Below, piece by piece: positions 358-42,800 of a DNA stretch of 64,000 nucleotides. The stretch comes from Scolanthus callimorphus (taxonomy: Eukaryota; Cnidaria; Anthozoa; Actiniaria; Edwardsiidae), in assembly GCA_033964015.1 (NCBI GenBank), contig CM066920.1:7593912-7657911 (forward strand). The letters are read 5' to 3'. The position numbers and the translations under genes are program-made. A model generated the notes under the pieces. That model was not told where the DNA came from and did no database searches. It saw only the letters and a program-made list of their open reading frames with translations. Positions within the stretch are counted from its first letter, which is position 1. Each line of letters begins with the position of its first letter.

Positions 358-512
358 ATTGACTCAGTTCTTTTAGACTGTTTGGTTACTCGTGGTTACT
401 CGTTTGAAAATTAATATCTGGCTATCACATTGCTCGAAATTATATAATGTGCTGTCATAAGAGATTGTGACTTATATAGGAATAATTTTAAAAAGTTCTA
501 AGTGATTTAAAA

Positions 513-4400: not shown

Positions 4401-7400
4401 TATTGCTTTCAGACACTCAGGGACAAAATAGCTGAGACCCCCTACGCAAATTACGGTTAAAATAAAATATTGCCCTTAAACACCCACAAAATCCCTTTTG
4501 CAGAGCCCTTAACCACCTCCCCCCCTCCCCCACATCAATGTTGTTTCCAGACCAATCGTTGTCCTCCAACATTGAAGAGGGGGGAGGGGGCTGAGCATGT
4601 TGAAAGAGAGTTTCAACGAATTCTCTATTTTTCGTGTACAGTAAGAAAGAGTCTCAGCTATTTTTGTCCCTGAGTGTCCGAGAGTATCATGTCTAAAAAT
4701 TAGTTATTTATAAAGTAGTGTTTCCGCGCGCTTTGTTGTATTCTGAAAATATAATCTCACAAGGACCTGTAAAGATTAGAAAAAGCATTGCTTAGAATAG
4801 TTGCGCCTTTTAATGTTACTATTTTCGATAAAATGTTAGCCTGTTTATTTTGACGAAACGAGAGGTTTGAAGGGACTGCAAACGGATGTGAAAAGGGAGG
4901 GGGTCTGGGCGCTCCCACCCTGCCGTCGCTGTTCCGTAGTGCTTATTCTTGACATTTGAAAGAGTTTTAAAGACTTTGAAAGAGTTCCACGAACAGTAAA
5001 TCCAATAGGCCATTTTCATGTTCCATTAGTCTCTAAAATAGTAGGATAGGACAATGAAATCTCTCATTTCAACGAGTAACCACGAGTAACCACGATGATA
5101 GAAAAATAATGAAAGAGTTTTGAAGACTTTGAAAGAGTTTCCCGAACAGTAAATCCAAAAGGCTATTCTCATGTTCCATTTAGTCTCTAAAATAGTAGGA
5201 TAGGACAAGGAAATCTCTAATTTCAACGAGTAACCACGAGTAACCACGATGATAGAAAAATAATGATTGACTCAGTTCTTTTAGACTGTTTGGTTACTCG
5301 TGGTTACTCGTTTGAAAATTAATATCTGGCTATCACATTGCTCGAAATTATATAATGTGCTGTCATAAGAGATTGTGACTTATATAGGAATAATTTTAAA
5401 AAGTTCTAAGTGATTTAAAACATGCAAATTGGAAGTTTTTCCCGACTAAGTAACGGGCAATTCCAAACCGGAAGTGACAACATAGAACCGGAAATGCAAA
5501 TTCGCTTCTGTTAATGTTCTAAAAATTGCACTGCAAATGTGATCGTAAGAAAACAGTTCTATTTTATAGAAGTATTGGTAGTAGCAATCTTCTTGTCGCA
5601 GTTTTGCATTCCTCGGTCTTTGCCTCTCCAATTTGTCTTAGTATCAACCGCTCCTCCGTTTTAGAGACTTCTTCGGGCGCTCCCGCTGTTTCCCTTCCCC
5701 TTCCTTTTTTGGCCTTTTGCAGCCATCCGAAGGCTCTTTTACTATTTAAAACTAGGTGCTCTCGAAAGCTCAAGTATTGTTGATATTTTGGAAACGCTAA
5801 ATCCTCGATCATTTTTCAAATACTTCATATATGCTCGCGTTTCTGGTGATATGGCCGTCTACTTGCCCATATCTCAAGCGTGCGCCTAATTCCAAAATCA
5901 ATATTTCATGACGTCATTAATTAGCACTGCAATTAACGAGGATAATTGACTATGTAAAACGTTCAGCTTCTCGAGATCTTTAAAATAAGACCAAGGTTGC
6001 TCCTCAACTCCCTTGTTTCAATGAGATACAGCTTACTATTGCTTTCAGACACTCAGGGACAAAATAGCTGAGACCCCCTACGCAAATTACGGTTAAAATA
6101 AAATATTGCCCTTAAACACCCACAAAATCCCTTTTGCAGAGCCCTTAACCACCTCCCCCCCTCCCCCACATCAATGTTGTTTCCAGACCAATCGTTGTCC
6201 TCCAACATTGAAGAGGGGGGAGGGGGCTGAGCATGTTGAAAGTGAGTTTCAACGAATTCTCTATTTTTCGTGTACAGTAAGAAAGAGTCTCAGCTATTTT
6301 TGTCCCTGAGTGTCCGAGAGTATCATGTCTAAAAATTAGTTATTTATAAAGTAGTGTTTCCGCGCGCTTTGTTGTATTCTGAAAATATAATCTCACAAGG
6401 ACCTGTAAAGATTAGAAAAAGCATTGCTTAGAATAGTTTCGCCTTTTAATGTTACTATTTTCGATAAAATGTTAGCCTGTTTATTTTGACGAAACGAGAG
6501 GTTTGAAGGGACTGCAAACGGATGTGAAAAGGGAGGGGGTCTGGGCGCTCCCACCCTGCCGTCGCTGTTCCGTAGTGCTTATTCTTGACATTTGAAAGAG
6601 TTTTAAAGACTTTGAAAGAGTTCCACGAACAGTAAATCCAATAGGCCATTTTCATGTTCCATTTAGTCTCTAAAATAGTAGGATAGGACAATGAAATCTC
6701 TCATTTCAACGAGTAACCACGAGTAACCACGATGATAGAAAAATAATGAAAGAGTTTTGAAGACTTTGAAAGAGTTTCCCGAACAGTAAATCCAAAAGGC
6801 TATTCTCATGTTCCATTTAGTCTCTAAAATAGTAGGATAGGACAAGGAAATCTCTAATTTCAACGAGTAACCACGAGTAACCACGATGATAGAAAAATAA
6901 TGATTGACTCAGTTCTTTTAGACTGTTTGGTTACTCGTGGTTACTCGTTTGAAAATTAATATCTGGCTATCACATTGCTCGAAATTATATAATGTGCTGT
7001 CATAAGAGATTGTGACTTATATAGGAATAATTTTAAAAAGTTCTAAGTGATTTAAAACATGCAAATTGGAAGTTTTTCCCGACTAAGTAACGGGCAATTC
7101 CAAACCGGAAGTGACAACATAGAACCGGAAATGCAAATTCGCTTCTGTTAATGTTCTAAAAATTGCACTGCAAATGTGATCGTAAGAAAACAGTTCTATT
7201 TTATAGAAGTATTGGTAGTAGCAATCTTCTTGTCGCAGTTTTGCATTCCTCGGTCTTTGCCTCTCCAATTTGTCTTAGTATCAACCGCTCCTCCGTTTTA
7301 GAGACTTCTTCGGGCGCTCCCGCTGTTTCCCTTCCCCTTCCTTTTTTGGCCTTTTGCAGCCATCCGAAGGCTCTTTTACTATTTAAAACTAGGTGCTCTC

Positions 7401-10400
7401 GAAAGCTCAAGTATTGTTGATATTTTGGAAACGCTAAATCCTCGATCATTTTCAAATACTTCATATATGCTCGCGTTTCTGGTGATATGGCCGTCTACTT
7501 GCCCATATCTCAAGCGTGCGCCTAATTCCAAAATCAATATTTCATGACGTCATTAATTAGCACTGCAATTAACGAGGATAATTGACTATGTAAAACGTTC
7601 AGCTTCTCGAGATCTTTAAAATAAGACCAAGGTTGCTCCTCAACTCCCTTGTTTCAATGAGATACAGCTTACTATTGCTTTCAGACACTCAGGGACAAAA
7701 TAGCTGAGACCCCCTACGCAAATTACGGTTAAAATAAAATATTGCCCTTAAACACCCACAAAATCCCTTTTGCAGAGCCCTTAACCACCTCCCCCCCTCC
7801 CCCACATCAATGTTGTTTCCAGACCAATCGTTGTCCTCCAACATTGAAGAGGGGGGAGGGGGCTGAGCATGTTGAAAGTGAGTTTCAACGAATTCTCTAT
7901 TTTTCGTGTACAGTAAGAAAGAGTCTCAGCTATTTTTGTCCCTGAGTGTCCGAGAGTATCATGTCTAAAAATTAGTTATTTATAAAGTAGTGTTTCCGCG
8001 CGCTTTGTTGTATTCTGAAAATATAATCTCACAAGGACCTGTAAAGATTAGAAAAAGCATTGCTTAGAATAGTTGCGCCTTTTAATGTTACTATTTTCGA
8101 TAAAATGTTAGCCTGTTTATTTTGACGAAACGAGAGGTTTGAAGGGACTGCAAACGGATGTGAAAAGGGAGGGGGTCTGGGCGCTCCCACCCTGCCGTCG
8201 CTGTTCCGTAGTGCTTATTCTTGACATTTGAAAGAGTTTTAAAGACTTTGAAAGAGTTCCACGAACAGTAAATCCAATAGGCCATTTTCATGTTCCATTT
8301 AGTCTCTAAAATAGTAGGATAGGACAATGAAATCTCTCATTTCAACGAGTAACCACGAGTAACCACGATGATAGAAAAATAATGAAAGAGTTTTGAAGAC
8401 TTTGAAAGAGTTTCCCGAACAGTAAATCCAAAAGGCTATTCTCATGTTCCATTTAGTCTCTAAAATAGTAGGATAGGACAAGGAAATCTCTAATTTCAAC
8501 GAGTAACCACGAGTAACCACGATGATAGAAAAATAATGATTGACTCAGTTCTTTAGACTGTTTGGTTACTCGTGGTTACTCGTTTGAAAATTAATATCTG
8601 GCTATCACATTGCTCGAAATTATATAATGTGCTGTCATAAGAGATTGTGACTTATATAGGAATAATTTTAAAAAGTTCTAAGTGATTTAAAACATGCAAA
8701 TTGGAAGTTTTTCCCGACTAAGTAACGGGCAATTCCAAACCGGAAGTGACAACATAGAACCGGAAATGCAAATTCGCTTCTGTTAATGTTCTAAAAATTG
8801 CACTGCAAATGTGATCGTAAGAAAACAGTTCTATTTTATAGAAGTATTGGTAGTAGCAATCTTCTTGTCGCAGTTTTGCATTCCTCGGTCTTTGCCTCTC
8901 CAATTTGTCTTAGTATCAACCGCTCCTCCGTTTTAGAGACTTCTTCGGGCGCTCCCGCTGTTTCCCTTCCCCTTCCTTTTTTGGCCTTTTGCAGCCATCC
9001 GAAGGCTCTTTTACTATTTAAAACTAGGTGCTCTCGAAAGCTCAAGTATTGTTGATATTTGGAAACGCTAAATCCTCGATCATTTTTCAAATACTTCATA
9101 TATGCTCGCGTTTCTGGTGATATGGCCGTCTACTTGCCCATATCTCAAGCGTGCGCCTAATTCCAAAATCAATATTTCATGACGTCATTAATTAGCACTG
9201 CAATTAACGAGGATAATTGACTATGTAAAACGTTCAGCTTCTCGAGATCTTTAAAATAAGACCAAGGTTGCTCCTCAACTCCCTTGTTTCAATGAGATAC
9301 AGCTTACTATTGCTTTCAGACACTCAGGGACAAAATAGCTGAGACCCCTACGCAAATTACGGTTAAAATAAAATATTGCCCTTAAACACCCACAAAATCC
9401 CTTTTGCAGAGCCCTTAACCACCTCCCCCCCTCCCCCACATCAATGTTGTTTCCAGACCAATCGTTGTCCTCCAACATTGAAGAGGGGGGAGGGGGCTGA
9501 GCATGTTGAAAGTGAGTTTCAACGAATTCTCTATTTTTCGTGTACAGTAAGAAAGAGTCTCAGCTATTTTGTCCCTGAGTGTCCGAGAGTATCATGTCTA
9601 AAAATTAGTTATTTATAAAGTAGTGTTTCCGCGCGCTTGTTGTATTCTGAAAATATAATCTCACAAGGACCTGTAAAGATTAGAAAAAGCATTGCTTAGA
9701 ATAGTTGCGCCTTTTAATGTTACTATTTTCGATAAAATGTTAGCCTGTTTATTTTGACGAAACGAGAGGTTTGAAGGGACTGCAAACGGATGTGAAAAGG
9801 GAGGGGGTCTGGGCGCTCCCACCCTGCCGTCGCTGTTCCGTAGTGCTTATTCTTGACATTTGAAAGAGTTTTAAAGACTTTGAAAGAGTTCCACGAACAG
9901 TAAATCCAATAGGCCATTTTCATGTTCCATTTAGTCTCTAAAATAGTAGGATAGGACAATGAAATCTCTCATTTCAACGAGTAACCACGAGTAACCACGA
10001 TGATAGAAAAATAATGAAAGAGTTTTGAAGACTTTGAAAGAGTTTCCCGAACAGTAAATCCAAAAGGCTATTCTCATGTTCCATTTAGTCTCTAAAATAG
10101 TAGGATAGGACACGGAAATCTCTAATTTCAACGAGTAACCACGAGTAACCACGATGATAGAAAAATAATGATTGACTCAGTTCTTTTAGACTGTTTGGTT
10201 ACTCGTGGTTACTCGTTTGAAAATTAATATCTGGCTATCACATTGCTCGAAATTATATAATGTGCTGTCATAAGAGATTGTGACTTATATAGGAATAATT
10301 TAAAAAGTTCTAAGTGATTTAAAACATGCAAATTGGAAGTTTTTCCCGACTAAGTAACGGGCAATTCCAAACCGGAAGTGACAACATAGAACCGGAAATG

Positions 10401-13400
10401 CAAATTCGCTTCTGTTAATGTTCTAAAAATTGCACTGCAAATGTGATCGTAAGAAAACAGTTCTATTTTATAGAAGTATTGGTAGTAGCAATCTTCTTGT
10501 CGCAGTTTTGCATTCCTCGGTCTTTGCCTCTCCAATTTGTCTTAGTATCAACCGCTCCTCCGTTTTAGAGACTTCTTCGGGCGCTCCCGCTGTTTCCCTT
10601 CCCCTTCCTTTTTTGGCCTTTTGCAGCCATCCGAAGGCTCTTTTACTATTTAAAACTAGGTGCTCTCGAAAGCTCAAGTATTGTTGATATTTTGGAAACG
10701 CTAAATCCTCGATCATTTTTCAAATACTTCATATATGCTCGCGTTTCTGGTGATATGGCCGTCTACTTGCCCATATCTCAAGCGTGCGCCTAATTCCAAA
10801 ATCAATATTTCATGACGTCATTAATTAGCACTGCAATTAACGAGGATAATTGACTATGTAAAACGTTCAGCTTCTCGAGATCTTTAAAATAAGACCAAGG
10901 TTGCTCCTCAACTCCCTTGTTTCAATGAGATACAGCTTACTATTGCTTTCAGACACTCAGGGACAAAATAGCTGAGACCCCCTACGCAAATTACGGTTAA
11001 AATAAAATATTGCCCTTAAACACCCACAAAATCCCTTTTGCAGAGCCCTTAACCACCTCCCCCCCCTCCCCCACATCAATGTTGTTTCCAGACCAATCGT
11101 TGTCCTCCAACATTGAAGAGGGGGGAGGGGGCTGAGCATGTTGAAAGAGAGTTTCAACGAATTCTCTATTTTCGTGTACAGTAAGAAAGAGTCTCAGCTA
11201 TTTTTGTCCCTGAGTGTCCGAGAGTATCATGTCTAAAAATTAGTTATTTATAAAGTAGTGTTTCCGCGCGCTTTGTTGTATTCTGAAAATATAATCTCAC
11301 AAGGACCTGTAAAGATTAGAAAAAGCATTGCTTAGAATAGTTGCGCCTTTTAATGTTACTATTTTCGATAAAATGTTAGCCTGTTTATTTTGACGAAACG
11401 AGAGGTTTGAAGGGACTGCAAACGGATGTGAAAAGGGAGGGGGTCTGGGCGCTCCCACCCTGCCGTCGCTGTTCCGTAGTGCTTATTCTTGACATTTGAA
11501 AGAGTTTTAAAGACTTTGAAAGAGTTCCACGAACAGTAAATCCAATAGGCCATTTTCATGTTCCATTTAGTCTCTAAAATAGTAGGATAGGACAATGAAA
11601 TCTCTCATTTCAACGAGTAACCACGAGTAACCACGATGATAGAAAAATAATGAAAGAGTTTTGAAGACTTTGAAAGAGTTTCCCGAACAGTAAATCCAAA
11701 AGGCTATTCTCATGTTCCATTTAGTCTCTAAAATAGTAGGATAGGACACGGAAATCTCTAATTTCAACGAGTAACCACGAGTAACCACGATGATAGAAAA
11801 ATAATGATTGACTCAGTTCTTTTAGACTGTTTGGTTACTCGTGGTTACTCGTTTGAAAATTAATATCTGGCTATCACATTGCTCGAAATTATATAATGTG
11901 CTGTCATAAGAGATTGTGACTTATATAGGAATAATTTTAAAAAGTTCTAAGTGATTTAAAACATGCAAATTGGAAGTTTTTCCCGACTAAGTAACGGGCA
12001 ATTCCAAACCGGAAGTGACAACATAGAACCGGAAATGCAAATTCGCTTCTGTTAATGTTCTAAAAATTGCACTGCAAATGTGATCGTAAGAAAACAGTTC
12101 TATTTTATAGAAGTATTGGTAGTAGCAATCTTCTTGTCGCAGTTTTGCATTCCTCGGTCTTTGCCTCTCCAATTTGTCTTAGTATCAACCGCTCCTCCGT
12201 TTTAGAGACTTCTTCGGGCGCTCCCGCTGTTTCCCTTCCCCTTCCTTTTTTGGCCTTTTGCAGCCATCCGAAGGCTCTTTTACTATTTAAAACTAGGTGC
12301 TCTCGAAAGCTCAAGTATTGTTGATATTTTGGAAACGCTAAATCCTCGATCATTTTTCAAATACTTCATATATGCTCGCGTTTCTGGTGATATGGCCGTC
12401 TACTTGCCCATATCTCAAGCGTGCGCCTAATTCCAAAATCAATATTTCATGACGTCATTAATTAGCACTGCAATTAACGAGGATAATTGACTATGTAAAA
12501 CGTTCAGCTTCTCGAGATCTTTAAAATAAGACCAAGGTTGCTCCTCAACTCCCTTGTTTCAATGAGATACAGCTTACTATTGCTTTCAGACACTCAGGGA
12601 CAAAATAGCTGAGACCCCCTACGCAAATTACGGTTAAAATAAAATATTGCCCTTAAACACCCACAAAATCCCTTTTGCAGAGCCCTTAACCACCTCCCCC
12701 CCTCCCCCACATCAATGTTGTTTCCAGACCAATCGTTGTCCTCCAACATTGAAGAGGGGGGAGGGGGCTGAGCATGTTGAAAGAGAGTTTCAACGAATTC
12801 TCTATTTTTCGTGTACAGTAAGAAAGAGTCTCAGCTATTTTTGTCCCTGAGTGTCCGAGAGTATCATGTCTAAAAATTAGTTATTTATAAAGTAGTGTTT
12901 CCGCGCGCTTTGTTGTATTCTGAAAATATAATCTCACAAGGACCTGTAAAGATTAGAAAAAGCATTGCTTAGAATAGTTGCGCCTTTTAATGTTACTATT
13001 TTCGATAAAATGTTAGCCTGTTTATTTTGACGAAACGAGAGGTTTGAAGGGACTGCAAACGGATGTGAAAAGGGAGGGGGTCTGGGCGCTCCCACCCTGC
13101 CGTCGCTGTTCCGTAGTGCTTATTCTTGACATTTGAAAGAGTTTTAAAGACTTTGAAAGAGTTCCACGAACAGTAAATCCAATAGGCCATTTTCATGTTC
13201 CACTTAGTCTCTAAAATAGTAGGATAGGACAATGAAATCTCTCATTTCAACGAGTAACCACGAGTAACCACGATGATAGAAAAATAATGAAAGAGTTTTG
13301 AAGACTTTGAAAGAGTTTCCCGAACAGTAAATCCAAAAGGCTATTCTCATGTTCCATTTAGTCTCTAAAATAGTAGGATAGGACACGGAAATCTCTAATT

Positions 13401-14319
13401 TCAACGAGTAACCACGAGTAACCACGATGATAGAAAAATAATGATTGACTCAGTTCTTTTAGACTGTTTGGTTACTCGTGGTTACTCGTTTGAAAATTAA
13501 TATCTGGCTATCACATTGCTCGAAATTATATAATGTGCTGTCATAAGAGATTGTGACTTATATAGGAATAATTTTAAAAAGTTCTAAGTGATTTAAAACA
13601 TGCAAATTGGAAGTTTTTCCCGACTAAGTAACGGGCAATTCCAAACCGGAAGTGACAACATAGAACCGGAAATGCAAATTCGCTTCTGTTAATGTTCTAA
13701 AAATTGCACTGCAAATGTGATCGTAAGAAAACAGTTCTATTTTATAGAAGTATTGGTAGTAGCAATCTTCTTGTCGCAGTTTTGCATTCCTCGGTCTTTG
13801 CCTCTCCAATTTGTCTTAGTATCAACCGCTCCTCCGTTTTAGAGACTTCTTCGGGCGCTCCCGCTGTTTCCCTTCCCCTTCCTTTTTGGCCTTTTGCAGC
13901 CATCCGAAGGCTCTTTTACTATTTAAAACTAGGTGCTCTCGAAAGCTCAAGTATTGTTGATATTTTGGAAACGCTAAATCCTCGATCATTTTCAAATACT
14001 TCATATATGCTCGCATTTCTGGTGATATGGCCGTCTACTTGCCCATATCTCAAGCGTGCGCCTAATTCCAAAATCAATATTTCATGACGTCATTAATTAG
14101 CACTGCAATTAACGAGGATAATTGACTATGTAAAACGTTCAGCTTCTCGAGATCTTTAAAATAAGACCAAGGTTGCTCCTCAACTCCCTTGTTTCAATGA
14201 GATACAGCTTACTATTGCTTTCAGACACTCAGGGACAAAATAGCTGAGACCCCCTACGCAAATTACGGTTAAAATAAAATATTGCCCTTAAACACCCACA
14301 AAATCCCTTTTGCAGAGCC

Positions 14320-24817: not shown

Positions 24818-27800
24818 CTACATGATATTAAAGCCAAAAGAGCCTGAACTTAGTACTATATTTTAGGCTGATGGTTGAACTTAAGTCGCGCCGAACTCAT
24901 TCCAAATAGAATGTTGCGACTAAAAGACTGAGTAGTTTTGCACATAGCGATATGGAATAACGGACAACTCGGCAACATTTTCATGACTCTCGTAAATATG
25001 TAAGCCTACTGACACGAATCAACAGGTGCTTTTGTGGGCTTTTCACAAACGAGATTGAGCCAAAATCTACTAATTTAGTACCAAACTTTGTTGCATTTTC
25101 GGCCGTCTTTGAAGCATGCAACCCACCCCCCCCCCTCGATAAATAAGGACAAGAAATTAAGCTCGAGAGTTCCTCCCCAACATAAGTTTGCGTCTCGCAA
25201 GGGAGGCTCTGGTGACAGCCATTTGTGTCCTTTTGTTGATTAGCTGATTTTGTACCTTGGAGCATGCGTAGAAAGTTCTTTCTCTCGACGGCTCTGTATT
25301 AAATATTGCGCATGCGTCAGTGGCTGTCACCAGAACCTCCCCCGCGAGGTGACGAGCCGGGGAGCTCTAGGTACGTGAAAGAGTCAATAGTACCCATGCA
25401 CAAGTTAAAAAGAGTACTCACCTAAAGAATTTATTAAATGTTATAGGATAACCGTACTGTTCTGACAAGCCTGCACAGACAACATTGGCCGACGCACCAA
25501 TCAAAGTACCGTTACCTGAAAGAGATGAATTTTACAAAAGTGTTTCCACGAACGAAAAGACGAACGGCTCATCGCCCATCCTGTACGGTGGATTTACAGT
25601 TCCTAGAGCGAATTTCAGATTAGTGCAGTAAGACTAAATTCACCTAGCCAATCATGTACGAGAGAAAATACGTTGCTGCTGAATGATTTTCCAGTCAGCT
25701 AATCACAAGCCAAGGAAAACCACCATCACGCGCTGAGCACGTAGCGGTTTTCTTTGTAAGCCAAGCAATGTAAAACACTATCAAGCGGTGACCACGTGAT
25801 CACTAAATACTCAGCTGCGTTCAGTTCAGTTCAGCTGCGAATTTTTTCTGCGACTGCCCAATACAAATAATTTTCGACACATCTGAAATCCGCTCTATGC
25901 GATTTTTTGGTTCAAAATGAGAAATAGACTGGGTGACTTGTGGTTATTGTTGGTACTTTTGTGGCAGGGTGGGAAACATGATCGATGATCGTCATGATCC
26001 AGCGCCTCTGTGGGAGCTCATACCAGTGGTTTTATTGTCCAGGAAAAAGCAGCACTGGATCCTCAATAATTGGTCTGCTAAAGCATCGGTTGCTTGGCGC
26101 AATCATTTTGGGAATTAGCCAGCTAAAATTGGGTGCTGTGTTCTAGTCTGAGGCGTATAAGTTATTCAATAAATTTCCAAGATCTACTATGGCCAGATCC
26201 ATTTCTACGTCATGATTGAAACTGTCGACCAATCCATTGAAACATCTGCCGTTTTAGTTTTGAAAAACCCTACGACTCTGGCAAATAAACTCCGTTTATA
26301 GCATGCTGCCAAGCAATCATTTCTACCTTACCTCCTAAGCACGCGCCCATAGCAAGCGCCCAGACCAAAGGCCTTAAAGGAAGCCCTAATTCTTTCTTGT
26401 TGTGAAGCTCAAGTATGACTGGTACCTTAAACACAAAACATGTAGATTTGAATATCTATGAAGTAATACAGCCATGGGTAACTTGGTATCACCACGATTG
26501 TTCTCCCCCTAAGTGATGTTTTGTATTACCCACTTCTTCTCATATCGGTCCGTTTTAGTATTGGGCTGTTCCAAAATTTGTAATAAGAGCCCTGAGTCAG
26601 CCATTCCTTTGTCATTGTTTTCATTCGATAGGAGTAAGATTGTGTAGAAATCTCGAAATAACCATCTACATTGATTTACCGAAGTCGATCGAAAATAATG
26701 CACTAAATCATTGCAGCAGCCGAAATCATTGGTGCTGTGCTGCGGACAAAATGGAGGCTGACTAAGACCCCAGAACTGCATAATTGATTACGACTCACCA
26801 TAGCCGTGGTAAAGGGTATGTTATCAATAAATGATGATGCGATAGCTGATATCCATGTGATAGCAATGATAGCGACAGTGAGTCGAGATCCCTCGTGTAC
26901 GCCCTATAAATGTGAAAAGTTTAATACGTTATAAATGACACATTCGTCCCATTCTTGCGTTTGTGTACTTCGTTCATTTGGTTATCTTGAGCCGGGCGTA
27001 TAATCACTTTGCCACATGGTCTTGTGACCAAGTTAATTTGTTTGTACAGGGTATTAGTAAAAGGAGACCGTGCCTGAAATCCATAACACACACTCACATC
27101 ATAAAACGCGCGCCGCTCCTTCCACTTCTGACCGGCCTAGTCTCCCAGCGTTCGGGTGAACCCATGTTATAGTCTTCTCATCGAGGGAATAAAGATTGCT
27201 TTGGGAATGGGTCTTTGGTCGTCCAGCGATATTCAGGTTTGGTGGTCACTCAAGTAAAAGAATCCTATTGTATTTATTGTGTATGTCAAAGCAACACGAC
27301 CACAAGACAAGGAACGATCGGAGGACTAGGGAAATTGCTGCCCGCACAGCTTACAATCATGAGGCCTCTGAGAGCCCATTGCACCGGGAGACGAAGAGTG
27401 CAAAGGTTTTTTAGCGTCCACCGAGCACTAGCAGGTGGCTTTTGCTGACTTTTTTTATAATTGACTCGCAACTGGATAACAGGAACCAATTTGTGTTTAG
27501 TTTCGTTTTTTTAGCGTCCACCGAGCACTAGCAGGTGGCTTTTGCTGACTTTTTTATATTTGACTCGCAACTGGATAACAGGAACCAATTTGTGTTTAGT
27601 TTCGTTTTTTAGCGTCCACCGAGCACTAGCAGGTGGCTTTTGCTGACTTTTTTTTTATATTTGACTCGCAACTGGATAACAGGAACCAATTTGTGTTTAG
27701 TTTCGTTTTTTAGCGTCCACCGAGCACTAGCAGGTGGCTTTTGCTGACTTTTTTATATTTGACTCGCAACTGGATAACAGGAACCAATTTGTGTTTAGTT

Positions 27801-30800
27801 TCGTTTTTTTAGCGTCCTCCGATCACTAGCAGGTGGTTTTTGCTGACTGTTTTTATATTTGACTCGCAACTGGATAACAGGAACCAATTTGTGTTTAGTT
27901 TCGTTTTTTAGCGTCCTCCGATCACTAGCAGGTGGTTTTTGCTGACTGTTTTTATATTTGACTCGCAACTGGATAACAGGAACCAATTTGTGTTTAGTTT
28001 CGTTTTTTAGCGTCCACCGAGCACTAGCAGGTGGCTTTTGCTGACTTTTTTATATTTGACTCGCAACTGGATAACAGGAACCAATTTGTGTTTAGTTTCG
28101 TTTTTTTAGCGTCCTCCGATCACTAGCAGGTGGTTTTTGCTGACTGTTTTATATTTGACTCGCAACTGGATAACAGGAACCAATTTGTGTTTAGTTTCGT
28201 TTTTTTAGCGTCCTCCGATCACTAGCAGGTGGTTTTTGCTGACTGTTTTTATATTTGACTCGCAACTGGATAACAGGAACCAATTTGTGTTTAGTTTCGT
28301 TTTTTTAGCGTCCTCCGATCACTAGCAGGTGGTTTTTGCTGACTGTTTTTATATTTGACTCGCAACTGGATAACAGGAACCAATTTGTGTTTAGTTTCGT
28401 TTTTTAGCGTCCTCCGAGCACTAGCAGGTGGTTTTTGCTGACTGTTTTTATATTTGACTCGCAACTGGATAACAGGAACCAATTTGTGTTTAGTTTCGTT
28501 TTTTTAGCGTCCTCCGATCACTAGCAGGTGGCTTTTGCTGACTTTTTTTTATAATTGACTCGCAACTGGATAACAGGAACCAATTTGCGTTTAGTTTCGG
28601 GGAAATAATCATGATTGCCTACCTCTATCGCGAGCGCTGTTTGGTTGCTGAGGTATTCAATCAGTCCGAGATAGTCTAAAGCCTAGAAATGAACAAAAAG
28701 GCGGGTGAAACAACATTCACCGGGGTTTACGACTGAAAATTGGAAAAATAGAAAACTCGTACCCAGAGCCCTACAACTTTTGGCCAGCGGCACGATTTCA
28801 GGTAGATCCTTCATATATGGTACACTATAGTGTCCCTATAAATAACTCCCATGTCTTATAGAACGAGGATATACCGTTTCCGGAAACGTTGTCACCCAAA
28901 AAGCCTATAAGCTTGAAGCGCAAGGGATAATGGGGGCATCTAAACTGCTACTGTTTGATCTGAATTCAGACAGTTATCGCAACCACAGGTAAAATCATTG
29001 AATTTCAGCACATTCTAAGCATAGTTGTTTCTAATTTACAGAAAATCACTAATAAATCTTTACCCATACTCCCTAGCGCACCAAGCTGTGTTGTTTTTTC
29101 CAGTGACAACGTATCCCGGAAACGGTATATACAGAAGGACACTATAGTGTAGCATATATGAAGGATCTAGGAGATTTCAGGGCATGAGGGAGGCTCTAAT
29201 GACGATCATTTCTAGGCCTTCGTGGATTGGCTAATATTGGGCATGCGCAGTCTTCGATATCTGTACTCCCGCGCATGCCTCTATTATGGGTTTTGTAAGC
29301 GACTGAGTTCTTCGTGGAAACCCGGCTTGAGGAAAGTGAAAATTTACTCTCAACAACAAGGACCTTCATTCTTTCACGAAAGGAATTGTTTTGCAGCCAT
29401 CAATTATCACTCTTACTCTCATAAGTATAAAGAGTCCAGCGAAAAAGACCAACGTCGTCCATTCCACCATTTCCATCAAGTCTTCAATCTTCTCGATGTC
29501 GGCCAGAAGGATCAGAGCTATCGCTCCCATGATGGCGATCCAACCTGTCACAGAATCACAATACTTAAATTCCCATATACTCTAGGCAGATTGCAGTCAT
29601 CATTGCATTGAAATGAAAAAAAAAAGTCTTAAAAATTCGGATTTCGTTGATATTTCAAGCAAAAGTAGCCGTTGCTATTGCAAGCAAACATTATGGCTGA
29701 TACTTTTGATATCAGGGCTACGACCGACTGCTAGAAAGATCGCCTAAAGGAGTGGCATGATTAATCTTTACGTCTTGAGAAGTAATGATGATGTTACTTT
29801 TATCCGCCTTGCGTCCATTCCAAAGGATAGGTGCAAGGAACGTGACCCTTGGTTCATGTACATATGCCAGGGCCCGACATTGCTACCATATGGTCGCCAA
29901 TGGCGACTAAATTTGGGGCTTGGCGACCAAAGTATTAGAGCTAGTCGCCAAATGGCACTCCATCTTTCTAAGTTCGACTGAGATGCACGTTTATGTGGCG
30001 ACTTAAGGTGGATCGACCCAGTAATTTTGCACCCATGCCAACCAATTTTGAACCTCTCATATAAAAACAGATTGATTTCTATTGCGCAGCCAAAATAACA
30101 CACATACTACAAATAGACTGAAATACATGTCAGTACAAAAATTGGGGAGATCGGAGTTAGTATCACGTGACAATCGAACCAGGCCTACTTTTACTCTCAT
30201 TCCAGTTTCAGGCTGAACCGACATTTGTTTGATAAATGCTCTACGGTACCTCGAGATTGACTGATTGCCTACTTGTAACCGAAGTTTGATTAAATTCTAC
30301 AAGCCCGATCTGAAGATATTCTAGGATTTATAAATCATGGCTATAATTTATGTAAAATTCAGTGTAGCGAATAAATATGTCAGAGTTTGGTACTTCATGG
30401 TTATAGATGAAAGTTTTTTTTATAGCTCATTATATTTGTTATTGTTCAAGGAAGGTCATACTTTTGATTAAAATTGAATATTGTTTTGCGATTTCGAAAA
30501 ATATAGAAATATAAGTATCTACATAATTGCCCCACGCATCAGCTCAACGCGAAATGTGGGCCTACTTTCACGGAATTTGGTCTGATTTAAAAAATCATAG
30601 TTTTTTTCGCTTCAAATTTTTGGAAGACTGAAATAGATCAATGTAAAGTTTGTCTCCAACGTTTCATATCAATTGAAATCCTCTAAGGCTGTCAACTGGG
30701 GACGCAAAGATCGTAAATATTGGATGGATTTCTGTAGTTTCTACTCGGGGATTTGCTATTGTTCTCCGGCACAAAATCGAATTCCAATGAATGCAGTCTC

Positions 30801-33800
30801 GATGCTACAAACAGTTTGAAGACGCTGACATGTTAACCGCGTGGTCCAAGATACAACGTACCTACGCCTAAGTCGATCTTTGCAAACGTATGAATGAAGA
30901 ACAGAAGGATCACCACGGATATGACAATTCCACTCTTGATAAGTAATGGCCAGTCGGTGATCCTGTACTGAGAATGAGAAGAATAAAAGAAAATTACAAA
31001 GAAGCATAGGGAACAAACAGTGGGAAGTCACAAAATAGCAGCAACCCCCTGTTGAGGAGTCCAGTCTCAGCTTACCACCCTGGAAATTGTAAGTTGTTCC
31101 GATCCACCCTGGGATCTATGTTCACACCCATTGTGGAATTCCATAAGTTTGAGATACCCACCCTGGAATTGGCATTCTCCTGTAATACCAACCCTGGAAT
31201 TCTAGGCTGTTTTAGGACCACCCAGCCTGGAACTTCAGAGGTCCTCACCAGACGGAATTATGTATTATCCACCCTGCTTACTCATCAGCATTAATTAAGA
31301 TATAAAGATATGATGACGTCATCCGGAGAGTTGAATAGTGTATTATCCACCCTGCTTACTCATCAGCATTAATTAAGATATAAAGATATGATGACGTCAT
31401 CCGGAGAGTTGAATAGTGTATTATCCACCCTGCTTACTCATCAGCATTAATTAAGATATAAAGATATGATGACGTCATCCGGAGAGTTGAATAGTGTATT
31501 ATCCACCCTGCTTACTCATCAGCATTAATTAAGATATGGAGATATGATGACGTCATCCGGAGAGTTGAATAGTGTATTATCCACCCTGCTTACTCATCAG
31601 CATTAATTAAGATATGGAGATATGATGACGTCATCAGGAGAGTTGAATAGTGTATTATCCACCCTGCTTACTCATCAGCATTAATTAAGATATGGAGATA
31701 TGATGACGTCATCCGGAGAGTTGAATAGTGTATTATCCACCCTGCTTACTCATCAGCATTAATTAAGATATGGAGATATGATGACGTCATCAGAAGAGTT
31801 GAATAGTGTATAATCCACCCTGCTTACTCATCAGCATTAATTAAGATATGGAGATATGATGACGTCATCCGGAGAGTTGAATAGTGTATTATCCACCCTG
31901 CTTACTCATCAGCATTAATTAAGACATGGAGATATGATGACGTCATCCGGAGAGTTGAATAGTGTATTATCCACCCTGCTTACTCATCAGCATTAATTAA
32001 GATATGGAGATATGATGACGTCATCAGGAGAGTTGAATAGTGTATAATCCACCCTGCTTACTCATCAGCATTAATTAAGATATGGAGATATGATGACGTC
32101 ATCCGGAGAGTTGAATAGTGTATTATCCACCCTGCTTGCTCATCAGCATTAATTAAGACATGGAGATATGATGACGTCATCCGGAGAGTTGAATAGTGTA
32201 TTATCCACCCTGCTTACTCATCAGCATTAATTAAGATATGGAGATATGATGACGTCATCAGGATAAATGAATAGTGTATAATCCACCCTGCTTACTCATC
32301 AGCATTAATTAAGATATGGAGATATGATGACGTCATCAGGAGAGTTGAATAGTGTATTATCCACCCTGCTTACTCATCAGCATTAATTAAGATATGGAGA
32401 TATGATGACGTCATCAGGAGAGTTGAATAGTGTATAATCCACCCAGCTTACTCATCAGCATTAATTAAGATATGGAGATATGATGACGTCATCAGGAGAG
32501 TTGAATAGTGTATTATCCACCCTGCTTACTCATCAGCATTAATTAAGATATGGAGATATGATGACGTCATCAGGAGAGTTGAATAGTGTATTATCCACCT
32601 GCTTACTCATCAGCATTAATCAAGATATGGAGATATGATGACGTCATCAGGAGAGTTGAATAGTGTATTATCCACCCTGCTTACTCATCAGCATTAATTA
32701 AGATATGGAGATATGATGACGTCATCAGGAGAGTTGAATAGTGTATTATCCACCCTGCTTACTCATTAGCATTAATTAAGATATGGAGATATGATGACGT
32801 CATCAGGAGAGTTGAATAGTGTATTATCCACCCTGCTTACTCATCAGCATTAAATAAGATATGGAGATATGATGACGTCATCAGGAGAGTTGAATAGTGT
32901 ATTATCCACCCTGCTTACTCATCAGCATTAATTAAGGTATGGAGATATGATGACGTCATCAGGAGAGTTGAATAGTGTATTATCCACCCTGCTTACTCAT
33001 TAGCATTAATTAAGATATGGAGATATGATGACGTCATCAGGAGAGTTGAATAGTGTATTATCCACCCTGCTTACTCATTAGCATTAATTAAGATATGGAG
33101 ATGATGACGTCATCAGGAGAGATGAATAGTGTATTATCCACCCTGCTTACTCATTAGCATTAATTAAGATATGGAGATATGATGACGTCATCAGGATAGA
33201 TGAATAGTGTATAATCCACCCTGCTTACTCATCAGCATTAATTAAGACATGGAGATATGATGACGTCATCAGGAGAGTTGAATAGTGTATAATCCACCCT
33301 GCTTACTCATTAGCATTAATTAAGATATGGAGATATGATGACGTCATCAGGAGAGTTGAATAGTGTATTATCCACCCTGCTTACTCATCAGCATTAATTA
33401 AGATATGGAGATATGATGACGTCATCAGGAGAGTTGAATAGTGTATTATCCACCCTGCTTACTCATCAGCATTAATTAAGATATGGAGATATGATGACGT
33501 CATCAGGAGAGTTGAATAGTGTATTATCCACCCTGCTTACTCATCAGCATTAATTAAGATATGGAGATATGATGATGTCATCAGGAGAGATGAATATTAC
33601 TCCTGTGACAGCTTATCCAGCCTGCTTACTCATCAGCATGGAGATATGATGACGTCATCAGGAGAGTTGAATAGTGTATTATCCACCCTGCTTACTCATC
33701 AGCATTAATTAAGATATGGAGATATGATGACGTCATCAGGAGAGTTGAATAGTGTATTATCCACCCTGCTTACTCATCAGCATTAATTAAGATATGGAGA

Positions 33801-36800
33801 TATGATGACGTCATCAGGAGAGTTGAATAGTGTATAATCCACCCTGCTTACTCATCAGCATTAATTAAGATATGGAGATATGATGACGTCATCAGGATAG
33901 ATGAATATTACTCCTGTGACAGGGTCGCCACCCTGGGATTCTAGGCTGCTCTAGGACCATCCTACCTGGATTTCTAGAGGTCCTCAACAAATGTGGTGCA
34001 GTTTGTTTCCGCCACTGCGAAATGGGCTGTTCCAAAACAAAAACATAGCCCCCCCCCACCCTACCGAGGAACTCCAAATTTTCAAAAATTGCTCTACCCC
34101 TGTCGAAATTCCAGACACCTGTACAACTACTGTGGGCCTGTGGAAATTCCACAGTTGCAAATGAATACCCTGTGGAACTTCCAAGGTAAAATGAATGGCC
34201 CTGTGGAAATGCCAGGGTCAAAATCAACAAGCCTGTGGAAATTCGAGGGTCAAACACAGCGACCCCCTGTGGAAGTTCCTTGTTCCTCGATAGGGGGGTA
34301 ACGGGACAGAGCGGAAATGACCAAAAATGAAATGTCTAACTTCGCCATATTTTAATATATAAGCTCAAGATTCCGTATACAAAGAGTTTCTATGACCGAA
34401 AGCTTAATTCCAAATTTTCAAGAAATTTGAAGAATATGAATTTTAGATATGATTGAACAAAGTTTGCAGAATTCCTGATCAAAGTACTAATTCTCCCATA
34501 AAATGGTACAAAAACCAAAGTTGAAAGCCTAATATCTCAAAGACGGATCCATTAGAAAAAAGTCATTTTTGATATTTTGTTGTTATTCAGGCAAGGAGTC
34601 TGTATGCAAAAAATCAAGCTTATCTGAGTTAAGGGGCCGACCATTTAACTTTTGAGGGGGGGGGTGGGCTTTTTTGTCGGTGCAAGATTTTTTTTTCTAC
34701 CTCTGTTAAGCGGTGAGAACTTTTTTCCAATAAAAAAGAAGGGTTTTAGTCACCATTTTGCTGTGCAGGAAATTTTTTTCGGCCCTTCGGGCCGTGCAGG
34801 AAATTTTTTTTCACAAAAGCCCTCCCCTCAAAAGTTAAATGGTCGGCCCTAACCTGTCCTTATTATTTGAAATTTAATGATCTAAACAGGTCATTTCCGC
34901 TCTGTCGGGTAACGGATATAATCGAAAAACAGGTTTACCTTGTTCTCTAGTTCCTGTAGATTTTGTCTAAAGGCTTCTTCGCGGCTCCTGTGTAAATTAA
35001 AACAGCGATGTCAATGGACGTCCAGGCACTTAAACAGGATAAAACTGAACCAGCACTTACATTCTCCTTTCTAGGTTTCGGATTTCATTTTCTATTATCA
35101 AGGTTTTCTGGATGAGCAAAAGTTTGACTGTTTTCTCTTCCGTAGATACGACAGGAACGCGTTCGGCTGTACGACGCCATATTTCTGCTTCGCGCTTGAG
35201 TTCTATGAAGACAAAGATGAAACCTTAACGTAACTCACAGTTATTGGAAAACGTGCAATATGCAGTACACTTGTGCTCAAACTCGAGTCCTTCCTTAAAC
35301 ACTGGACAAAGATACCTCTTTTATAGAAACTGGAGAAGGGGAGACTTAAATATTATACACTTAATGACTGCTCCCGAGGGAAACATCACTGAGTTTTGTT
35401 TCCCGTTAATCTCGATGTTTCCCGAGACGAAGTCGAGGGAAACATCGAGATTCGAGGGAAACAAAACTGGTGTTTCCCGAGGGAGTGAGTCATTAAGTGT
35501 TTTGTTTATAGCAGAAAATATACTACAATTATTAAGTCAAAACAAATTTTATTTAAAGAATGAAAGAGAAGTTACAAAGTGTGCGCGCGACTGCATCATG
35601 TAAAGGGAAAACACTCCTAAATAACACAATTTTCTTGCATTAGCAAACCTTTAGCAAAGGTTTTTTTTTAAAGACTCGCGTGTTTACAATAAACTTCTAT
35701 TTTTTCCCGCTCTCAAACGCGACGCGCGAAAGCAATATTCCCCAACCGGTCAATAATTTTTCGAAATATTGACTGATCGGGGAATATTTGATATAGCCTG
35801 CTCGCAGGCGCTGGAGAGTAGTTTTTAGGTCGAAAAACTCGAGTTTGCTTTCGCCTGGCCGCCATCTTGGATTTGGCGAAAACTACTAATATTGTTCCTC
35901 TTACCAGCAATCCTCGGAGGGTCTGCATTTTGGAGGTTGACGCGGAGATATAATAACCTGAGAATAATCGAAACAAAGTAAATAATCGTGGTACTGTAGG
36001 GCTGGTCAATCTTTCTTAGCTTAATTACCTCAAGAATCCATAGCCGACGATCAGGCATAGAATGATGCCACCACTGACATGGCTCGTGAAAACTAAGAAG
36101 TCAATTCCCTGAAAAAATGACCATCACATTAACACTCACACTTAAGCCTAGTTTCCATATAGTCTTATCTGTCGCATCAGTCAACCGTGAAACAAAAGAA
36201 TAATTCCAATTTTCATTGTTTCACGGTCGACTGATGAGACAGATACGACAGATAAGACTATATGGAAACCAGGCCTAAAGTAACTTCGACCGGCCTCTGT
36301 GCTTAAAATATTCGGGTTTGCACTGCGACACTAGCAAGCGCACAGGATTAAAGAAGTGTGCTTTAACCACCCAAATCTTATGAGACCATCCGTCATCGAC
36401 ACTTTCGTCACGAACGGACCCCAATCAAGGCCCCGAAAGTTGGTCTGGGAGCCTTTTAGCCCGCAATGAATTTGAATCATCTATGCTAGTACTAGTGCCA
36501 AGAGCCAAGAGACAGTCTTAATTTTATACGCATTATGAGTGAGTGCACATTAACTTCGACATAATCAACTCAACTCACCGTTCCCTTTATCTGACTGTTG
36601 GATACTATGATGACATTGGGTGGATCTCCGATCGCTGAGGAGATAAAAGAAGACTACATCACAAACGCAAACCCAATAATGATCGTGGTGACGTCAAACG
36701 CATAACAGGATGAACAGCAACAGCATTCGCATAAGTATATTGACCACAACCCGTAAAACAAAAAAGAGCAATGCTTAAACACGCTTATTACACTTTCAAC

Positions 36801-39800
36801 ATTTGATTCAGCACCATTCGACATTAGGCGCACTGCTGAGTGATGTTGATCTGGTTTGACACCACCATTTAGCCAGCCTAGCTGGCTCTCGGGTGTGCGC
36901 GAAGCGCGGAGGCGAGTGGAGGCGAGTGCTTGGCGGAGGCGAGTGCGACAGCATCCAGGGCGCCTCGATTTCGTGCGCGCCTGGAATCTGTCTCGGAAAA
37001 CGACTCCTCTCGCAAACAAACAGAGCCGGCTACGCAGGCTACCACCATTCAACACCGTTCACACTGTCTTAGCTTAACCCGCCTAATCACTGCAGTGATC
37101 ACTTACCAGTTGCGGTCCCACCGATGTTCGAGAATATTACCTCGGCTATCAGTACATGGGTTGGGTCCAAGTTGAGAACTTGGCACAATCTGAAATTAGA
37201 GGTGGTTAACTATTTGATAAATGACCATATTTACAGCCATAGTTGAAAACGGAACAGATAGCCCTACAAGTATGCAAGGGAATGGGCTGTTCCAAAACAA
37301 ATCCCGTACCCCCCTATCGAGGAACTCCAAATTTTCAAAAATTGCTCTACCCCTGTGGAAATTCCAGACTCCTGTACAACCCCTGTTCTAATGGGCCTGT
37401 GGATATTCCACAGTTGCAAATGAATACCCTGTGGAAATTCCAGGGAAAAATGCAGCTACGCACACATGCAGCTACGCACCTGCTGTCACAATCTATTTCA
37501 TTTATTTCATTTTACCTTAGAACGTTACTTAGGGACTTGTTGTCCCGTTTTGCCAACAAAGAGCTTTCTCAGCTGTTCCCTCACCTGATAGTAACGGGAG
37601 TTAAGAGTAATACTGTCGTAACGTTATCCTGAGAAGCAATAAGAAAAAGAACATAAACCCATTCATGCATAAACAATGATAAAAGAGAAAGTAAAGGAGG
37701 GGGAGAGAATGAATGGAATGTCATCCTCGGTAGTTGGACACGTGAGTGATTGCACCACGTGAGTGATTGCACCAGTTACATTTCTTACTGCAGTAATTTG
37801 TACCAAACTCCGATGAATGCTAACCATGTGATAAAAGCTCGCTGATGAGGACTTTCTTGTCAAGAAGCAAGTTTATTTTCTTTTTTTGGGTAGTATGGGG
37901 TCTGACTAACAACTGATAACAGACTTTAAAAAAAGCTGACAACTGACAAACTTAAAGTCTAACTGACACTAACTTACTTTGTCGTCTGCTGCCGCTGCCA
38001 GAGTCAAATCCAAGAAAATTATCCGACTTAGAAATCATGAATTTGCGCTCACTGACACTGGGAACCCCATCAAAACCCTATTTTTCCGTTAGTCGACGAA
38101 CAAATGCGTCTAGGTCTAGGAGTTAGAGATCAGGGTCCGGTTGCTCGAAAGTGGTTTAGCACTAATCCAGGATTAATTACCATGGTGACTCGATGGTTTT
38201 TTTCAGAACTAAACCAAGGTTTAAATTTAATCCACCTTTGAACAACCCGCACCAGAGTATAGGGGAGTGTAGCAAAAGGAAAGTCTTTCCGGTGGTTACG
38301 TCAGCACGAGCCATTACCAAGAATGCAGAGACAATCGCGGTAGCGAAACATAACATTGTTATCAGAAGCCAAACCCGGCCTTGGGATAATTTATACGCCT
38401 GCAAAAGAAACAACATGGTGTCAGAGAATTCGGTATGACTGCCGATAAGTCGGCTTTTGAATCGTGCCGCGACCGCAAGTCACGTGCAAGTCGAACTCGA
38501 TACAAAATGGCCAAGAGAAGGCAAGGCCTAGGACCCGCGCCGTACAAAAAGTGATCAACGAGAAAGCGCTAAACCAGACTCGTTAAACACGGAGTTGTAA
38601 AAGGAGCGGGCCCGCGGGCCTTTGATTGTCAGTTGTCACTCAGCTGTTGTAGAGTTAACACCTCTCTGTGACGCGAAATTCAATATTTCTATTCAAAACG
38701 CGAGTTTGTAAAGAAATAAATAGGAACTCTTTGCTTTTTAAACAATTACCTTTTAGTTGCTGCAGAATAATTTTTATTACAACCGGTTTGGCTCAGATAA
38801 AACCTTTTCGTGCGGAGAGCAACACTTATTAGTATTCATAAGGATCGAAATATTCTGAACCGCGAAATTCAAAATGTGAGCTGAAAACGTTAGTAATCAT
38901 CAAATAACCAATTATTCAGTATTCTACAAGTAACTGCATTGCTATTTATTCAAAAATAATTTTATTTAAACTTGTTGGGGGTCCTATAAAAGCACTTTTG
39001 CCGGAGACTGAACATTCTCGACTTTATTGTTGAAATATGAATTTATAATTGCCGATTCAAGCGTGAAAATGGGCGGTCTTTTCCCTTTTATACCGGAACT
39101 CCGTGTTTAAAGTTAGTGCGTTTTGCGTTACAGGACTGTAACCAGTATTGCGTTACTTGGTAGTGGCCTAAAGGCTTATGGGAACGGCGAAGTAAATCCT
39201 CACCATAATCCTTTGCGCGCCTACCAAATCCTTTCAAAACCTTGTGCGTTCGCGACAGAGTATGAGTCTGCTCTTTACCTAGCCTCCTCCACAGGCGCCT
39301 CTCTCTCTAACCGCTCTCAGAACAACGGAAAAGCGAAACCGGAAGCGGCTGTGGCGAGAACCGGCCCCCCTCTCTCTCTAACCGCTCTCAGAACAACGGA
39401 AAAAGCGAAACCGGAAGCGGCTGTGGCGAGAACCTCCTCCCCGCCCCCCTTCGTAATTTTTTGTCGCTAACCCACAGGAAGCCCAATTTCCTGTTTCCTG
39501 TTTCCGTTCTTTCTCTTAAACGGAGTTGCCTGCGGAGGAGGCTACTCTTTACCTTTAATGCCACAAAATCGAAAAACCCAGTCTTGGCAAACACCGCAAC
39601 AAGGATCATCTGTGAAAATTAAAACAATGCGCTGTACATCAGGAAGAAACCTTATCCAGGAATCCAGTTCCATGCCAGACAAACAGGGATTCAATGAGTT
39701 CCGTTGCCATGATATCTGGTTGTGCAGAAGGAATGTATCATGGCTCGAAAGAAGCCCCTGGAAGGATATCGTGTTACCCAAAAAGGCACTGCAGAAGCAT

Positions 39801-42800
39801 TCTTCTGGCTCATGCAACTACCATTCCAAACAGCAAGCTAAGAGTGTCCCACTCTATCCATGTTAATATTTTATCCATCGTGGGTCTCTGAAGAAGAGTA
39901 TATTATTTTGAAGTAAAGTTGGTAATTTTAGCAGCGCAAATCATGCAGTCCGCCATTAATCGCTCGTATTCCATAATTTGGTTATGAAAACCACAGTTGT
40001 GATAACCACAGAGGGATAGCGAGACTTTTCTCTACAACGGGATTATATTATTATTTATTTTTAGTCGCTTCTCATTCTCATTCGAGTGCATACGATAACT
40101 GAGAGTCAAGATCTATATTTGGACTGCCTTGTAGTGGAACATGGCGGTCAGCAAAAGTCGTCTTTTGACAGGCTGAAAATTCTCAACTAAAATTCCGTAT
40201 TTTGAACTTCTAACAGCTAAAACGTATTTACAAATGTTTAATAAACTACGGTATCTGGAATGACATTTTCACAGAAAGGAAGGATTCGAATTTCGTACTA
40301 GTTAGTGCTACTATGGAGAAGGTACTTCCCTTACAAAAGTGTGGTTGGACGACGCATTCGCAGAATGGTGGATGTCTTACCATATTTAGCATGGAGAGTG
40401 CTGCGAGAGCCATTAGTGCACCTAGCATTGCGGCGGTCGCTCGGTGGACGAGCTGAGAAGAAGAAAACATAACTTGCGTAAGGCGAGCAAAAGAGGTCGA
40501 TTCACCAAAAGGTGACCTCTCGAATAAAACGTAAAGTAACAGGATTACATCAAAAATATGATCACCCATTCGAATAATAAATGTTGATACTAACCTCAAA
40601 GATGATAAGAACATAAACAAAAATCAAAATGACGAAGGCAATCACAACCTAGAGAAAGAGAGAAAGAAAAAATATAAGATCAGCCAAGCTCTCGTTTGAT
40701 AAAAGAAAAGGAAAATGAAGGACGTTAGAAGTTTGGCAGGAGACGCAACGTTTGAGAAAGATTTAGATCTGAAACCTAGCAACGACGAAAGCGCGTGCCC
40801 AAATGTTTCATGACATCACAATATGAAATTTATTTCGTCATCAAACTTGGGTTTCATATGACGTCGTCGCATCCGCTTGTCCAAAATCGAAGCGCGCGCA
40901 ACGAAAGAGAGCGCTAGAATGTGCGCGCTCTGAAAAGCAAAGAAGCTGTCGGCAAGTGCGCTGAAAATGGACGACTCTAGTTATAACGAATGCGCGCTGC
41001 ATGGCGATAGTTGTGTTACATTTCACCGTAACTATAATTTCACGAACCAAGTGCCTTGTCTGCGCACGTTGCATCCTTATTATGCATTACATTCCAAAAG
41101 TATTTCTGAAGAAAAGAGAGCGCGCGCATATAGCTGGAATACACCCAATGGACGACATCCGTAACAGCAGAAAAGTGCCGAAAACATGTACTGCATACGG
41201 ATTACAACCAGTGAAGAACGAATTCTGATTTGTGATACATGCGCATAAAAAATTGCGTCCTTTTTTATGAACAAATACATGGGCATCATGCTACATCTTT
41301 TGCTTCTTTGAAAATAACGAAATTGTTATATTCGAGTTTATGATTAAGAATGCACTTCTGACGCAACAAACAGGAAAGATCTGAACTTCATTTCGCCTGG
41401 TCGCAAACAATAACGAGAGCCAAAGAGGAAAAATACCTTCTCTTTATCTAATCTGAACTGTCAATCACCGCCTAACTGAGTGACACTGAATTTCCGTACA
41501 CAGATTTCGCTTGACTCTTACTGAACAGAATGGTAATACATCACAGTGCCTTTTTAAAGCCTTGGTGAAGCGCGCGACTGGGGGAAACAGTTTTCAAAGT
41601 GCGGTCTTCTTTCTGGAGGGGGTCTCGGACCACCCCCATGTTGCTTATATATTTCTTAACATGTCCACTAGGCAACAGAGTCGTGAGACCCCACAACTTT
41701 TTATCCCGCTACATCCCGATGATACCTGATTGTCAATGGACACTGGTTCCACAAAATATCTAAAGGAGAGAGCCCACACACTGTAAAACATCAGACTGGA
41801 ACTGCAAATTTAGCATCCGGGGCCTGAAAGAACCAAAGCATGGATAATGTTAGCTCATGAATATAAAGTTACCATCTCTAAGAGACATACCCAAGTTCCG
41901 AAAAAAGCCATTTCCAAACATTTCTCCACCCTGTGGAATTTCCAGGCTCCTGCCCAACACTTGCAGAAATTTGAATCAGCCCTTGAGGAAGTTCTTATGA
42001 CTTGCAAAAATATACCATGGTAATATTCAGGGTAAAAAACAATGACCCCTGTGGAAATTACAGGTTTCTCGATAATGGGGCAATGGATAATAAAAGGAAC
42101 AGCGCAATGGTTTTTATGTCAGAGTTTCCAAACCATCGTCTTGACTCAATAGTGCATTTTACAGTTATAGAAAATCAAAAGTAGGAAATCGATCAATAGG
42201 ACAGTCAGAACCACCAAACATATTACATCACTCACACATCACTTGTTTTCAGGTCAATTCTGAGAGACTGTTGGACAGGAGTGTTGTTGATCTGCTGCTT
42301 CCCTGTTGACACCTTGACAGACAAGTTGGTCACCTGGCAGGAATTTAACACAACGTGTGCAATGAAAAACATTATAGGGTTGCCTGGCTCTGATGTTACG
42401 GCTGACCTGCAGAGACATATCTATCCACATTTATATGTGTTATTAGTAAGAGTACTGTGAAAAGCAGTATGTTTGGGAAACCAGATGCTCCCTACAAGCA
42501 CGCTTCTGCGCACACAAGTGCACCATTAAGAACTGGGCCAAATATGCGGATGTTAACCCCGTTGCGGCCCGTTTCAACCCAAGCAACGCAGGACACAACC
42601 TAGAAGATCTAAGGATCAAGTGTATAAAGTGGGTTTCAAACTCTAGAGACCTCACAGGTGTTGAGGACTATTGGATGGACACTCTGAAAACAATGGCCTG
42701 AACATCAGAGAAGAACTCTAGAACTCTACCTATTTCTATTTAATTTACATGGGCGGGGATGAGAAACATATTTCTCTTTTTACTTGGCCTGATATCACAG

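Follow-up and report, generated by a model that had tools for sequence, protein, structure and literature searches.

A 64,000-nt stretch of the genome of the cnidarian Scolanthus callimorphus (hereafter, the window) contains the gene OCA2, one of whose introns begins with a short transposon flanked by two copies of a 9-bp sequence that includes the splice donor. An earlier note on this DNA described a Mutator-like MITE that had landed on the donor, with the target duplication regenerating what the insertion should have destroyed. The locus raises two questions: how a splice donor fares when a transposon inserts across it, and what kind of element this is.

We located the OCA2 exons by tblastn with a sequence of the human P protein; they run along the minus strand between 40452 and 24733. 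For the composite of the OCA2 exons in the window (418 aa), the best match is a protein of Nematostella vectensis, with 72% identity across the entire query, and the next named matches are the P proteins of Porites and Acropora corals (57-58%), as one would expect if the host is an anthozoan close to the sea anemones. Pfam searches with single exons returned only weak CitMHS matches, all below cut-off. The exons surrounding the insertion, and a further repeat in the same intron, are as follows.

39822..39887, minus strand: preceding OCA2 exon, 22 residues (tblastn, flanks)
39553..39609, minus strand: OCA2 exon of 57 nt, 19 residues, exon 12 in the numbering of the earlier note (tblastn, flanks, Nematostella homologue)
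38318..38398, minus strand: next OCA2 exon, 27 residues (tblastn, flanks)
38583..39110, no strand assigned: additional high-copy repeat in the intron with the insertion, unrelated to the latter, 528 bp, with ends TTAAACACGGAGTT and AACTCCGTGTTTAA

The 57-nt exon ends ...GCATTAAAG/GTAAAGAG (/ denotes the splice junction), and the next exon starts with GCGTATAAA at 38398, preceded by TTTTGCAG. Across the K/AY join of these two exons the Nematostella homologue shows no gap or insertion. It is thus splicing from the exon-proximal GTAAAGAG that yields the conserved protein, and this copy is presumably the working donor. A literature search on the position of introns in human OCA2 found no paper. 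Tandem repeats also occur in the window: a minisatellite with a 78-bp unit in 34 copies lies between OCA2 exon matches (31261-33907), an array of a 99-bp unit in 12 copies adjoins the OCA2 exon match near 28.6-28.7 kb (27406-28599), and nine 154-bp doublets at a spacing of about 1636 bp (48-13444) suggest a long tandem array.

Directly downstream of the 57-nt exon, the 9-mer CTCTTTACC is present twice in perfect copies, at 39271-39279 and 39545-39553, 274 bp apart from start to start. Between the two copies lies a 265-bp element (39280-39544) whose 17-bp terminal inverted repeats (TIRs), TAGCCTCCTCC[A/G]CAGGC, differ at one base, and in which we saw no genes of its own. Its parts, together with the flanking target-site duplications (TSDs), are listed below.

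39280..39544, plus strand: 265-bp non-autonomous TIR transposon, read as an internal-deletion derivative (TIRs, 9-bp flanks, match to a long element)
39280..39296, plus strand: left TIR, TAGCCTCCTCCACAGGC
39528..39544, minus strand: right TIR, TAGCCTCCTCCGCAGGC
39298..39368, plus strand: internal tandem duplication, first copy (spacing 71-72 bp; the second copy runs from 39369 to about 39440)
39545..39553, minus strand: exon-proximal TSD, GGTAAAGAG, the last exon base plus donor positions +1 to +8
39271..39279, minus strand: intron-side TSD, a potential decoy donor, TAG/GTAAAGAG

The inverted repeats and the perfect flanking repeats bear out a transposon insertion with a 9-bp target duplication, as the earlier note had proposed. 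Its placement of the donor within the duplicated 9-mer also holds: read on the minus strand, the right-hand 9-mer is G/GTAAAGAG, the last exon base being 39553, and this exon-proximal copy contains the OCA2 donor. The second donor-like copy that the note had pointed out, 274 bp downstream in the intron, is likewise present at 39271-39279. Apart from the self-match, the matches of its internal duplication and those of its inverted ends, the whole 265-bp element has no match in the window longer than 28 bp. The TIRs and TSDs point to the insertion of a short element through a 9-bp target. We regard this transposon insertion, 8 nt into the OCA2 intron, as real, well bounded and probably recent.

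The intron measures 1154 nt with this insertion and 880 nt without the 274-bp unit of element and one TSD copy; when the element and the 528-bp repeat are both subtracted, some 350 nt are left. The 528-bp repeat has TTAA-type inverted ends. Of its 739 candidates from a first look at the genome, 40 were scored; they include 39 further long matches at 91-94% identity.

The geometry of the insertion suggests how the donor came through it. A staggered 9-bp cut would have reached from the last base of the exon (-1) to position +8 of the intron, and the filling of the gaps would then have duplicated those 9 bp. The site before insertion would have held a single GGTAAAGAG followed by CAGACTCATACTC, and an uninterrupted exon junction with a single 9-mer would be expected to read ...TTAAAG/GTAAAGAGCAGACTCATACTC. 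With the exon-side copy continuous through +8, recognition by U1 at positions -3 to +6 would be unchanged, and the element would be removed along with the rest of the intron, as the continuity of the protein suggests. In searches of the species' own assembly with the flanks (best 40 candidates scored per flank search), we found no empty allele or paralogue; the flank matches listed, other than the window itself, lie in repeats (query 246-790 of 941 and query 351-749 of 907).

The claim that insertion should have destroyed the donor does not survive a count of the possible target positions. Whatever lies between the exon and the far edge of the duplicated target stays in one piece, so any 9-bp target reaching +6 or beyond keeps the donor. 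Among the 17 offsets at which a 9-bp target overlaps the donor 9-mer, 9 leave positions -3 to +6 intact, and 3 create a second GGTAAAG. At OCA2, the sequence is altered only from +9. An insertion at +8 of an intron is an ordinary event, and nothing needed rescue.

The far copy of the donor stays 274 nt downstream, where its predicted pairing with U1 would be about equal to that of the true donor (-6.7 kcal/mol, compared with -6.8 kcal/mol for the exon-proximal copy). Were it used enough to matter, the exon would gain 274 nt, shift frame and run into a stop inside the element (a predicted 331-nt exon instead of one of 57 nt), and this extended, stop-containing exon would lower OCA2 output, making the insertion regulatory rather than silent. 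The near-equality of the two U1 duplexes speaks for such a role, as does the predicted folding of the RNA of element and TSDs into a strong hairpin (-117.9 kcal/mol, against -99.6 with an sd of 4.5 for shuffles; z -4.06) that leaves both donor copies unpaired at its base. The hairpin is expected from the TIRs alone, however, and does not speak for a function. When the intron's 65 GTs are ranked by U1 pairing, the true donor comes third and the far copy fourth; the GTs at 39203 and 39224 pair better, and that at 38749 about as well. The far copy also has T rather than A at -3, and its use would require a 331-nt exon in place of a 57-nt one. The decoy donor of the earlier note exists where it was said to be but is nothing unusual among the GTs of its own intron, and we consider a regulatory effect through it unlikely.

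To place the element in a family, we searched the genome of the species itself, 597 Mb in 302 contigs. There, the element with its TSDs gave at least 46 match rows, itself included, the rows being alignment pieces. The exact TIR is found at 468 places (238 forward and 230 reverse), while the control, the same pattern read backwards, has 0 occurrences. From fetched loci we assembled 47 TIR pairs with at most 3 mismatches per TIR, a set that includes the OCA2 pair, cross-pairings and decayed copies. The 9-bp flanking direct repeats are perfect in 24 of these 47 pairs and have at most one mismatch in 32, which confirms the borders assigned to the OCA2 element. In the perfect cases, the positions directly outside the repeats agree in just 2/24 and 4/24, so that the TSD length of the family is 9 bp. 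The 34 distinct TSDs, which include those of four long pairs, vary in sequence and show a weak palindromic bias: counted on both strands, G occupies position 1 in 26/68 and T position 4 in 31/68, with positions 9 and 6 mirroring positions 1 and 4 by construction.

Three copies on different contigs share the same 9-bp flank, TACAGAACT, which suggests one insertion later copied in a larger duplicated segment. Against plasmid records, the 265-bp element gave no match. In viral contigs, 35 stretches had one exact TIR match each, which we took as chance, the best blastn match of the element at these loci spanning 41 bp among the first 20 rows listed.

A donor within a target duplication recalls introners, families of which have TSDs that supply splice sites, as described in passages of PMC9860276. 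The OCA2 element shares with the introners of those passages the presence of splice-site bases inside the target duplication, and its target contains GGTAAAG, so that one might suppose a family that aims at donor-like sites or builds introns from its target duplication. In contrast to introners, however, the element and one TSD copy do not make up a whole intron: the OCA2 element is part of a larger one, which extends 880 nt beyond the 274-bp unit and was thus not made by the element. The TSDs of the family are, moreover, varied, with GTRAR on either strand in 3 of the 34 distinct ones, that of OCA2 included. We saw no aiming at splice donors among these 34 target sequences, and hold an introner-like origin to be highly improbable.

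TIRs of this family also bound elements of 11-13 kb, and the enzyme that mobilised the short element was most likely encoded by long elements of this kind, with the same ends. Those used in this work are the following.

C12:1375522-1388114: long element with TSD TATCTTTGT; frames read, Pfam run
C2:37568669-37579935: long element with TSD GTGTACACC; frames read
C1:20727803-20738889: long element with TSDs CCGCATTGT and CGGCATTGT, one mismatch; frames read, Pfam run
C1:5927513-5940354: long element with TSD TGCACTCAT; ankyrin-DUF6589 match, and a further TIR inside at 5939320

In the C1:20727803-20738889 and C12 elements, Pfam identifies a RecQ-type helicase on one strand (PF00270, PF00271 and PF16124). 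The C12 helicase also scores 262 bits against TIGR00614 (cut-off 219.8), its frame being split by one stop. On the opposite strand, the same two elements have further frames and one of 577-584 aa in which ankyrin repeats are followed by a DUF6589 match. This match scores 35 bits in the C12 copy, against a cut-off of 27 that the C1 copy, at 17 bits, does not reach; in C12 it is partial, covering profile positions 264-376 of 410, and another frame gives a weak match to 64-106. Over most of the stretches that blastn aligns between the C2 element and the C1:20727803-20738889 element, among them the helicase and ankyrin-DUF6589 parts, identity is 65-76%.

Protein matches to the ankyrin-DUF6589 protein of the C2 element are annotated DUF6589 in 39 of 101 cases, most without an informative name, and many others are plain ankyrin proteins. 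An alignment profile of the protein searched against solved structures matched in the ankyrin part in the 60 rows listed of 435. Literature searches found no paper mentioning DUF6589, and none that brings together RecQ, ankyrin and a TSD. Elsewhere in this genome, DUF6589 has 103 matches of higher score. A TIR pair 9.2 kb apart on C3 (27808805-27818050), with TSD GCTTTACGT on both sides, was considered as a further coding partner and set aside, as its frames resemble a nested retroelement by eye.

We examined the association between the coding sequences and the TIRs on C1-C3, where every exact TIR place was listed (91 places), allowing a distance of up to 15 kb on each side. Ankyrin-DUF6589 matches on these contigs comprise 45 rows, which fall into 16 loci, 3 of them with the ankyrin part only. 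Three of the other 13 loci lie between a plus and a minus exact TIR, 1 has a TIR on one side and 9 are without, counts that rest on exact TIRs and so miss decayed ends. For a random place on C1-C3, the chance of lying between TIRs is 0.0004. In the three TIR-bounded loci, and in no others, one row alone spans almost all of the query, at 58-100% identity; among the six loci of at least 55% identity, 3 are TIR-bounded, 1 has a one-sided TIR and 2 have none.

These partners bear directly on the name Mutator-like. A 9-bp TSD is typical of MULEs, and the OCA2 family has this TSD length; MULE-domain sequences are also present in this genome (33 matches). Were the 265-bp element a MITE of the Mutator superfamily, mobilised by a MULE transposase, one might look for the MULE domain between TIRs of its family. 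However, none of the six MULE (PF10551) matches on C1-C3 lies between exact family TIRs within 15 kb, and no PF10551 was found at E 0.1 in 8 frames of the C1:20727803-20738889 element or 6 frames of the C12 element. The TIR, at just 17 bp, is short, and what the long elements with the same TIR encode is a RecQ-type helicase together with an ankyrin-DUF6589 protein. The resemblance to Mutator is thus one of TSD length only; with no MULE match on C1-C3 bounded by the TIRs and none in the scanned frames, the label is unsupported, and we think it very unlikely to be right.

Helicase content suggests another comparison. Passages of PMC9587614 present KolobokH as a Kolobok DNA transposon carrying RecQ, and a DNA transposon with a RecQ helicase is what the C1:20727803-20738889 and C12 elements of the OCA2 family also are. 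Kolobok, however, duplicates the 4 bp TTAA, whereas the OCA2 family duplicates 9 bp of varied sequence. The coral CMITEs of PMC2872659 are TTAA elements.

How the 265-bp element arose is suggested by its relation to the long elements. The 12.6-kb element at C12:1375522-1388114 has TATCTTTGT at either flank. The OCA2 element agrees with it at 84 of 85 bp of the left end; at the right end, 112 of 122 columns are identical and the remaining 10 are gaps. The second copy of the internal tandem duplication also aligns to the left end of the long element. In an alignment of seven short copies, that of OCA2 included, both ends are common to all, and the inner breakpoints and lengths differ. Ends shared with a long element, together with differing inner breakpoints, mark the OCA2 element as an internal-deletion derivative, and its closeness to the long element suggests that it is young.

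This relation also qualifies the term MITE. Ds-type elements are internal-deletion derivatives of DNA transposons. With these and with MITEs, the OCA2 element has in common its TIRs, a fixed-length TSD, the lack of visible genes of its own and ends shared with a long coding element. In contrast to a homogeneous MITE, however, the copies of its family differ in inner breakpoints and length. Among the at least 46 match rows, those spanning both ends, besides the element itself, are shorter and only 77% (query 10-278) and 68% (query 10-274) identical, and none of the other rows listed is a near-identical copy with the tandem duplication of the OCA2 element. What stands of the term is a short, non-autonomous TIR element with a fixed 9-bp TSD and the ends of a coding element; a MITE in the strict sense, with homogeneous near-identical copies, it is not.

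Together, these data make it very likely that a deletion derivative inserted in OCA2 through a 9-bp TSD, that it left the donor unchanged and is spliced out with the intron, and that the 11-13-kb elements supply the enzyme. The DUF6589 protein is a putative transposase. A broader reading, which we put forward tentatively and rate at somewhat below even, is that these elements represent an undescribed animal TIR superfamily of 11-13 kb with 9-bp TSDs, whose RecQ-type helicase is accompanied on the opposite strand by a protein of ankyrin repeats and a DUF6589 end that would be a new type of transposase, and which sheds short deletion derivatives into genes.

For the host gene, the insertion illustrates a rule: no splice-site base that lies between the exon and the far edge of a target duplication is lost. 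An element that lands a few bases inside an intron can accordingly be silent and yet leave a spare copy of the donor. For the transposon family, the long RecQ/ankyrin-DUF6589 elements are a better lead than the story of the splice site.
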